Below, one piece after another: positions 8,936 through 56,765 of a stretch of 64,000 nucleotides of DNA (positions within the stretch are counted from its first letter, which is position 1; every line of letters begins with the position of its first letter). Origin of the DNA: Dialister micraerophilus DSM 19965. Lineage in GTDB: Bacteria > Bacillota > Negativicutes > Veillonellales > Dialisteraceae. A program made the position numbers and the translations under genes. The notes under the pieces are model-generated. The model saw nothing but the letters and a program-made list of their open reading frames with translations, did not search any database and was not told the origin of the DNA. The DNA lies in the NCBI RefSeq assembly GCF_000194985.1, contig NZ_GL878519.1, forward strand, positions 303,226-367,225, written 5' to 3'.

Positions 8936-9877
8936 TTATTTTCCCTTTTCGGATGTATGCTTCTTCTTTTCATTCGTTATACATTCCGCATTTGAGCATA
9001 GTATTTTTTCGGTTCCGTTTTTATAGGTTTTCTTTGTCATTATTGAATGACATTCTTCGCAAAATTTATCTATAGGTTCATTCCACAGTGCCATATCACA
9101 ATTCGGATATTCATTGCATCCGTAAAATATACGTCCACGTTTTGAACGACGTTTTACCATATGTCCTTTTTTACATTTCGGACATATTATTCCTGTATCT
9201 TCTACAATTGCTTTATTTATTCCGCAGTCGACACATTTTAAATATCTTCCGTAAGGTCCTGTTCTGTATACCATATTTTTCCCGCATTTTTCACATGGTA
9301 TATCGGATAATTCATTTTTCTCTTCGGTTACGGAAAACGGTTTTATATTGCTGCATTTCGGATAATTCGGACACGCAAGATATTTTCCGTAGCGTCCCAA
9401 TTTTATAATCATGAACGCACCGCATTTTTCGCATTTAACTTCAGATATTTCTTGCTTTTTATCTTTTTCCGCATCAATTTTTGCAGATTCCAATTCTTTT
9501 TTGAAAACATCATAAAAATCTTGAAGTACTGCTTTATACGTTGCTTTACCTTCAGCAATTTTGTCTAACCAGCTTTCCAAATTTGCTGTAAAATCTATAT
9601 CTACAATTCCTGAAAAATATTTTTTCAAAAGATCGGTTACTACAAATCCGACTTCTGTAGGAATAAATTGCTTACCTTCTTTTGTTACGTATTTTCTTCT
9701 TTGGATTGTATCCAATATTGGTGCATATGTTGAAGGTCTTCCTATACCTTTTTCTTCCAAAGTTTTAATCAAGCTTGCTTCTGTATATCTTGCAGGCGGA
9801 GAAGTGAAGTGCTGTTCTCCTTCTGCACTTATATTCAACATTTCTTCGCCTTTTTGAATATTCGGCAACAATTTCAA
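8936..9877 (-). CDS. topA: DNA topoisomerase I, C-terminal part (downstream of a frameshift)
   Basis: This is the second half of topA, in the -1 frame relative to the first half. It encodes the conserved EQHFTSPPARYTEASL and EEKGIGRPSTYAP segment of the type IA core, then four CxxC-type zinc-ribbon repeats (CEKC...CPNYPKC, CEKC...CVDC, CPKC...CNEYPNC, CEEC...CSNAEC). If translated alone it would start at a TTG overlapping the TGA of the first half, with only a weak ribosome-binding sequence. Inserting one A in the A-rich stretch at 9888-9904 would fuse the parts into a normal TopA. A lone C-terminal piece lacks the Toprim domain and the active-site Tyr. Confidence 0.85.
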   Translation of the reverse strand: MKLLPNIQKGEEMLNISAEGEQHFTSPPARYTEASLIKTLEEKGIGRPSTYAPILDTIQRRKYVTKEGKQFIPTEVGFVVTDLLKKYFSGIVDIDFTANLESWLDKIAEGKATYKAVLQDFYDVFKKELESAKIDAEKDKKQEISEVKCEKCGAFMIIKLGRYGKYLACPNYPKCSNIKPFSVTEEKNELSDIPCEKCGKNMVYRTGPYGRYLKCVDCGINKAIVEDTGIICPKCKKGHMVKRRSKRGRIFYGCNEYPNCDMALWNEPIDKFCEECHSIMTKKTYKNGTEKILCSNAECITNEKKKHTSEKGK

Positions 9878-11253
9878 TTCTTCGGCATTTTTCTTTTTTC
9901 TTTTGCCGATTGCAATATTGTAAATCCGTCAAATAATACGTACATACCGTTTGCTTTTAATGTATAGTTTTCGGTTTTAAGCAGTACAACGGTATTTTGT
10001 TGTATTTGCGGTGTCATCTGACTTGCAATGAATCTGTTCCAAATCAATGTATATAAACGTAATTGATCTCTTGTAAGTACTTTTGTAAGTATTTCAGGTG
10101 CAAATTTCAAATTTGTAGGTCTTATTGCTTCATGTGCATCTTGAGCTTCTTTTGATTTGGAATATACATTATGTTTTTTAGGTAAATATTCTTCTCCGTA
10201 TACATTATTTATATATTCTCTGACCGATGTAATCATTTCATCCGATATACGTGTCGAGTCTGTACGCATATAAGTGATAAGTCCGACATGTCCATGCCCG
10301 GGAATTTCTACACCTTCATAAAGAATTTGTGCGAGCATCATTGTTTTCTTCGAGCCGAATCCGAGTTTGTTTACAGCATCTTGCTGCATGGTTGATGTTG
10401 TATACGGTGCTTTCGGTTTACGCTGTTTTTTCGATTTTGTAACGGATTCTGCAATTGCAGGTTTATTTAAAATTTCATTTACTGCATTTTGTGCTTCTTC
10501 TCCGTTTTTGAAAACTATATCTTTACCGTCTTTACGAATTACTTTTGCAGTAAATTTTTCATTATTTTTTGTTGAATAAACTCCGTTTACATACCAATAT
10601 TCTTCCGCTTTGAACGCTTTTATTTCTTCTTCACGCTCGCAAATCAAACGAGTGGCAACAGATTGTACTCGTCCTGCAGACAGTCCTCTGTAAACTTGTT
10701 TCCATAACCACGGAGAAATTTTATAACCTACCAATCTGTCAAGTACTCGACGTGCCTGCTGTGCATCTACACGATTCATATCCAAAGGTTTCGGATGCTT
10801 AATCGCTTCTTTTATGGCTGTAGGTGTTATTTCATGAAATGCTATTCTGACATTATCTTTAATATTTACATCAAGTAAATTTGATAAGTGCCATGAAATG
10901 GCTTCACCTTCACGATCCGGGTCGGTTGCCAAATAAACATCTTTAGATCTATTTGCTTCTTTACGCAATTCTTTTATTACGTTTTCACGTTCAGTGGAAT
11001 TTACGTATTCAGGTGTAAATCCGTTTTCTATATCTACCCCTAATGTACGTTGCGGCAAATCACGCAAATGTCCCATTGATGCCAACACTTTGTAATCTTT
11101 ACCTAAAATTTTTTCAATTGTTTTTGCTTTCGCCGGTGATTCCACTACAACAAGATGTTTCCCGTTTGCCTTAGGTTTTCTTTTAAATACCGGCTCTTTT
11201 TTCTTTCTTCCCTTACTCTTCGTTCCGATAGTAATAGTTCTGATAATCGGCAA
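9874..11253 (-). CDS. topA: DNA topoisomerase I, N-terminal part (upstream of a frameshift)
   Basis: Type IA topoisomerase that relaxes negative supercoils; normally essential or nearly so. This part holds the Toprim domain (VVVESPAKAKTIEKIL, ATDPDREGEAISWHL) and the catalytic Tyr in LITYMRTDST, about residue 328. It begins at TTG 11253, chosen because GGAGG (11261-11265) lies 7 bases upstream; the N-terminus carries an unusual basic extension of about 30 residues before the Toprim domain. The frame ends at TGA 9874-9876 right after the A-rich codons for KEKRK, and the protein resumes in the -1 frame (8936-9877). No other topA copy is in the window. Confidence 0.88.
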   Translation of the reverse strand: MPIIRTITIGTKSKGRKKKEPVFKRKPKANGKHLVVVESPAKAKTIEKILGKDYKVLASMGHLRDLPQRTLGVDIENGFTPEYVNSTERENVIKELRKEANRSKDVYLATDPDREGEAISWHLSNLLDVNIKDNVRIAFHEITPTAIKEAIKHPKPLDMNRVDAQQARRVLDRLVGYKISPWLWKQVYRGLSAGRVQSVATRLICEREEEIKAFKAEEYWYVNGVYSTKNNEKFTAKVIRKDGKDIVFKNGEEAQNAVNEILNKPAIAESVTKSKKQRKPKAPYTTSTMQQDAVNKLGFGSKKTMMLAQILYEGVEIPGHGHVGLITYMRTDSTRISDEMITSVREYINNVYGEEYLPKKHNVYSKSKEAQDAHEAIRPTNLKFAPEILTKVLTRDQLRLYTLIWNRFIASQMTPQIQQNTVVLLKTENYTLKANGMYVLFDGFTILQSAKEKRKMPKN

Positions 11254-11286
11254 CTTTATTCCTCCGTATCTGTTATGAAAATTCAA

Positions 11287-56035: not shown

Positions 56036-56577
56036 TATATTGCCTCCCTTATTTCTTCATTTATCAATTCTGCCGCATGTCTCGGATTTTCCGCTTGAGT
56101 AATCGGTCTTCCTATCACTAAAAGAGTTGCACCGTTATTTATTGCTTCTTTCGGTGTGGTAATACGTTTTTGATCGTTTGCATTTGCAAACTTCGGACGT
56201 ATTCCGGGTGTAACTATAAGAAATTCATCACCGGAAATTTCTCGTATCATTCGAGCTTCTTTAGGAGATGCTATTACACCGTCAAGTCCGGATTTTTTTG
56301 CGATTTTCGCAAAATTTATAACGCTGTCTTTTATAGATAATTTGCTGCCAATTTCTTTCCATGCTTCTTCATCAATTGCAGTTAAAACCGTTACACCTAA
56401 AATTTTCGGAACTTCTATTCCTTCTTCTTCAGCTGCAATTTTTGCATAATGAACTGCACTTTCAAGCATCCTACTTCCACCTGCCGCATGCACAGTTAAT
56501 AAATCTACTCCCAATTTTGTAAGATAATATACACTATGTCCTACCGTATTCGGTATGTCATGCAATTTCAAATCCAA
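56035..56577 (-). CDS. pyrF: Orotidine 5'-phosphate decarboxylase, C-terminal part (after a frameshift)
   Basis: This part begins with the active-site stretch DLKLHDIPNTV (the catalytic Lys and Asp), then LLTVHAAGG, VTVLTAI, ASPKEARMIRE, IVTPGIRPK and the substrate-binding GRPITQAENPRHAAE. It lacks the N-terminal barrel strand and DMNS loop, which lie in another frame at 56568-56765. The two frames overlap by 10 bases. If translated alone it would start at a TTG. One extra A near 56584-56594 would join the parts into a normal PyrF. Confidence 0.85.
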   Translation of the reverse strand: MDLKLHDIPNTVGHSVYYLTKLGVDLLTVHAAGGSRMLESAVHYAKIAAEEEGIEVPKILGVTVLTAIDEEAWKEIGSKLSIKDSVINFAKIAKKSGLDGVIASPKEARMIREISGDEFLIVTPGIRPKFANANDQKRITTPKEAINNGATLLVIGRPITQAENPRHAAELINEEIREAI

Positions 56578-56765
56578 AAAAACTTTTTTGTTTTACTTTT
56601 TAAAAATTCAACAGCTTTTTGTCCGACACTGTAGTACAATTCCATTCCTACTTTATAAAAAGAAACGGCATCTCCCAATTCATCTACCATTTCTTTCATT
56701 TTATCAAAGGAATTCATATCCAATGCCACAATTATTCTGTTGTTTACTTCACAGATTTTTTCCAC
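56568..56765 (-). CDS. pyrF: Orotidine 5'-phosphate decarboxylase, N-terminal part (before a frameshift)
   Basis: Final enzyme of UMP synthesis. This first part encodes RIIVALDMNSFDKM and FYKVGMELYYSVG, the usual PyrF N-terminus, then KSKTKKF before a TGA at 56568-56570. The homologous continuation (VFLDLKLHDI) is in the -1 frame. In phase at 56583-56589 lies A AAA AAG, the heptamer used for -1 frameshifting in dnaX of E. coli; slippage there would give KTKKVFLDLKLHD. The start is GTG 56765, with GGAG eight bases upstream. Either broken, mis-sequenced or recoded. Confidence 0.82.
   Translation of the reverse strand: MEKICEVNNRIIVALDMNSFDKMKEMVDELGDAVSFYKVGMELYYSVGQKAVEFLKSKTKKFFWI

Follow-up and report, generated by a model that had tools for sequence, protein, structure and literature searches.

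The frame break in topA of Dialister micraerophilus DSM 19965 is probably a one-base error of the assembly

In the genome assembly of Dialister micraerophilus DSM 19965, the topA gene is divided between two reading frames. Is the gene broken in the organism, is it expressed across the break, or is the break a fault of the data? The window, which is the whole 64,000-nucleotide stretch of DNA analysed here, lies within a 1.27-Mb contig. The assembly is 1.28 Mb long in 6 contigs, with an estimated completeness of 99.6%. In the window, topA is on the minus strand, and its neighbours are a trmFO-like gene and a dprA-like gene. The N-terminal piece of topA (9874–11286, minus strand) is an open frame of 470 aa, containing the Toprim region and the active-site Tyr region with the motif TYMRTDS. 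It ends at TGA (9874–9876), as the original prediction described, and the remainder of the gene is one base out of register. This remainder, the C-terminal piece (8936–9877, minus strand), contains the rest of the transesterification core and the zinc-finger region. The two frames overlap without a stop codon for 55 bases (9874–9928, minus strand), and the frame change must fall here.

Together, the two pieces span positions 1–629 of the 632 positions of TIGR01051 (topA_bact), with the N-terminal piece corresponding to 1–435 and the C-terminal piece to 445–629. With Pfam PF01131, the N-terminal piece matches positions 2–294 and the C-terminal piece 254–411. The Toprim region, the active-site Tyr region, and the C-terminal core are all encoded. 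In the sequence as given, however, a single continuous TopA frame is interrupted within 9874–9928. Based on BLAST coordinates against relatives, the net frame step is one base short. The coding strand reads A4-G-A6-G-A5 at 9888–9904 (minus strand), just as had been reported from the sequence, and this is the probable site of a one-base under-call. The missing base had been placed in the A5 run. The loss of one base agrees with the net step, but the A5 run is not singled out: the frame is restored with few altered residues whichever A run is changed. The overlap encodes a hydrophilic loop whose length and residues differ between relatives, so the sequence alone leaves the short run unassigned.

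The topoisomerase complement indicates whether the organism could live without this gene. No other type IA topoisomerase gene was found by a PF01131 search of the whole genome, which extends to the genome the absence of a second topA originally claimed for the window. The type II set consists of one GyrA/ParC-type gene and one GyrB/ParE-type gene. Each of the 12 family members searched (G000 and 11 others) has one GyrA/ParC-type gene, so the lineage seems to be without topoisomerase IV and to depend on gyrase and TopA. Apart from the genome itself, topA is intact in 59 of 59 relatives, in a search covering 13 genera. Among named relatives, Dialister sp. UBA7295 is the best match, and its inspected topA stretch is the same as that of G004 of the same genus (L003 and L086). 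With gyrase but no topoisomerase IV, and with intact topA in all relatives, the gene should be indispensable. The gene is essential in Mycobacterium tuberculosis, whose topoisomerase complement is the same (PMC6066988). Since topoisomerase IV appears to be missing from the family, a real loss of TopA is implausible.

If the break were an error of the data, similar breaks could be seen in other conserved genes of the same assembly. A coding-potential model was applied ab initio to find frame switches, but in a genome this compact its signal was too noisy to tell breaks from true gene borders. Breaks were therefore sought by homology: proteins from relatives were aligned to 564 kb of the genome and covered about 209 kb of it. 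A break was recorded when consecutive halves of a gene lay on one strand but in two different frames, and the broken genes were named by NCBIfam. Antisense shadow ORFs accounted for three apparent breaks, at L197 4150 and L202 19148 in this genome and at L183 5544 in the congener G001, and these were dropped.

Seven conserved genes show a one-base frame change in the 209 kb: ruvC, ftsE, ispD, trxB, thiL, topA, and pyrF. The break of pyrF, encoding orotidine-5'-phosphate decarboxylase, is the second one in the window (56568–56592, minus strand), at adjoining runs of A6 and T7. The others are located at L119 18218–18290 (ruvC, plus strand), L120 17041–17140 (ftsE, plus strand), L121 10071–10104 (ispD, minus strand), L122 14142–14259 (trxB, minus strand), and L126 19796–19902 (thiL, minus strand). 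The ispD gene here corresponds to a part of an ispDF fusion in a relative. Whole-genome family searches revealed no intact second orthologue of the split ispD, pyrF, or ruvC. A weak match to the IspD family at C1:1180776 is probably another nucleotidyltransferase. Six of the seven frame steps are one base short and one is in the opposite direction, a bias of sign that is not significant by itself (p = 0.125). All seven overlap zones contain A/T runs of 5–8, and compared with random zones of equal length from the same genome, the enrichment of runs has a combined p of 0.009.

The congeners served as controls. No genuine break was found in 209 kb of G001 or in 44 kb of G002. The difference in rate, 7 breaks in 209 kb here versus 0 in 253 kb of the congeners, has a p of about 0.004. 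Like breaks are thus present in unrelated conserved genes of this assembly and absent in relatives. Since other conserved genes of the assembly are broken in the same way and those of relatives are not, the break of topA is best attributed to the data. We consider it likely, with a probability of roughly 0.87, that the organism has an intact topA and that the assembly is one base short at 9888–9904, through a homopolymer under-call that would be one of many. When a singleton frameshift is validated by protein matches, a sequencing error is to be expected and not an indel mutation (PMC3711429). An under-call like this one in the A-rich stretch would be typical of reads prone to homopolymer errors, such as flow-based ones. 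We infer both this type of read and the absence of the base from the data rather than from the DNA. Extrapolated from seven in about 209 kb, roughly a few dozen such errors may be present genome-wide. The original prediction had left the choice between a base lacking from the data, slippage, and a split that the organism tolerates; the first is strongly supported here, while no support was obtained for the other two.

Other features of the assembly can be described alongside. One contig holds nothing but a 23S-5S rRNA copy, which is what an assembly with collapsed repeats would show. L125 (C1:240001–260000) contains 3,289 N, and the four small contigs C3–C6 read as N throughout, either as gaps or as withheld sequence. 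In the sampled stretches, A/T runs of 5–8 are commoner here than in G001 and G002, and the number of runs falls steeply beyond 8. No diagnostic truncation was seen in the spectra of homopolymer lengths, and a search of the literature gave no paper that names the assembly's sequencing method.

With so many A/T runs of 5–8 in this genome, genuine slippage deletions would fall at the same places. It could be supposed that a real and very recent one-base deletion by replication slippage made topA a pseudogene, which is tolerated, for example, via suppressor changes in gyrase. Both halves of topA are otherwise intact, as a recent event predicts. The ratio of C-half to N-half identity to relatives is 0.94–1.00, within the 0.94–1.11 seen among intact pairs, which indicates no relaxed selection on the C-terminal half. 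Such a deletion would, however, require six more conserved genes to have been lost at the same recent time. Topoisomerase IV cannot compensate where gyrase alone makes up the type II complement, and the essentiality of topA in M. tuberculosis is a further argument against the deletion. A mismatch-repair mutator as the cause is unsupported: mutS and mutL are both intact, so there is no obvious mutator. A recent deletion is therefore unlikely.

A gene truly out of frame could still yield full-length TopA, either by −1 ribosomal frameshifting or by slippage of RNA polymerase. The series A4-G-A6-G-A5 is prone to slip, and AAA codons in the P-site can slip. The presence of several breaks at A/T runs is also what a general habit of slippage would give. 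The details of the site do not fit this reading, though. The overlap contains no −1 slippery heptamer of the form X XXY YYZ in the zero frame; AAAAAAG is present but out of register. The downstream RNA fold is unremarkable as a stimulatory structure (z = −0.74, with 45 of 200 shuffles as good). Sites of transcriptional slippage are often homopolymers of at least 8, and combinations of two shorter runs are also allowed (PMC3711429). The longest A run in the overlap is six, shorter than these long homopolymers, and the break of ftsE is at runs of only five. A programmed −1 frameshift is expected to be conserved at its site, but the break of topA is shared with no relative. Recoding of topA is thus very improbable. 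In a broader version, all these breaks would be real, and this small-genome Dialister would make TopA, PyrF, IspD, FtsE, and further conserved proteins genome-wide through slippage of the polymerase or the ribosome at short A/T runs; we find this hardly credible.

The break is within a variable loop, a point in favour of two chains. The two halves might be made separately and then assemble into a two-chain topoisomerase I, with the C-terminal half started from TTG or from a downstream ATG. The first possible start of the C-terminal piece is a TTG overlapping the TGA of the N-terminal piece, and this TTGA overlap is compatible with translational coupling. No clear Shine-Dalgarno sequence or other ribosome-binding site was seen at the TTG, however. 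The split gene is found in none of the relatives, and the same type of break occurs in unrelated genes. A two-chain enzyme is exceedingly unlikely.

Data error, the preferred explanation, has a consequence for the use of this sequence. In conserved coding sequence, the assembly has a frame break about every 30 kb. Without reads, no biological conclusion should be drawn from apparent pseudogenes or split genes found in it.

Three known systems come close to this break. In Citrobacter rodentium, tssM1 likewise has a frame interrupted near an A-rich stretch, and slippage at poly-A during transcription rescues the broken gene (PMC4256274). The demonstrated slippage site there consists of 11 A, whereas the longest run in the topA overlap here is six. 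The −1 programmed frameshifting of dnaX uses A AAA AAG, and the string AAAAAAG is also seen in the topA overlap. Unlike in dnaX, the string does not lie in the register of the zero frame, and no notable stimulatory hairpin follows. The split of topA is almost certainly not a real biological feature. Between it and the homopolymer indel errors that fragment genes, no difference was observed: in draft assemblies, such errors are likewise one-base changes at short A/T runs, confined to a single assembly and hitting conserved genes.
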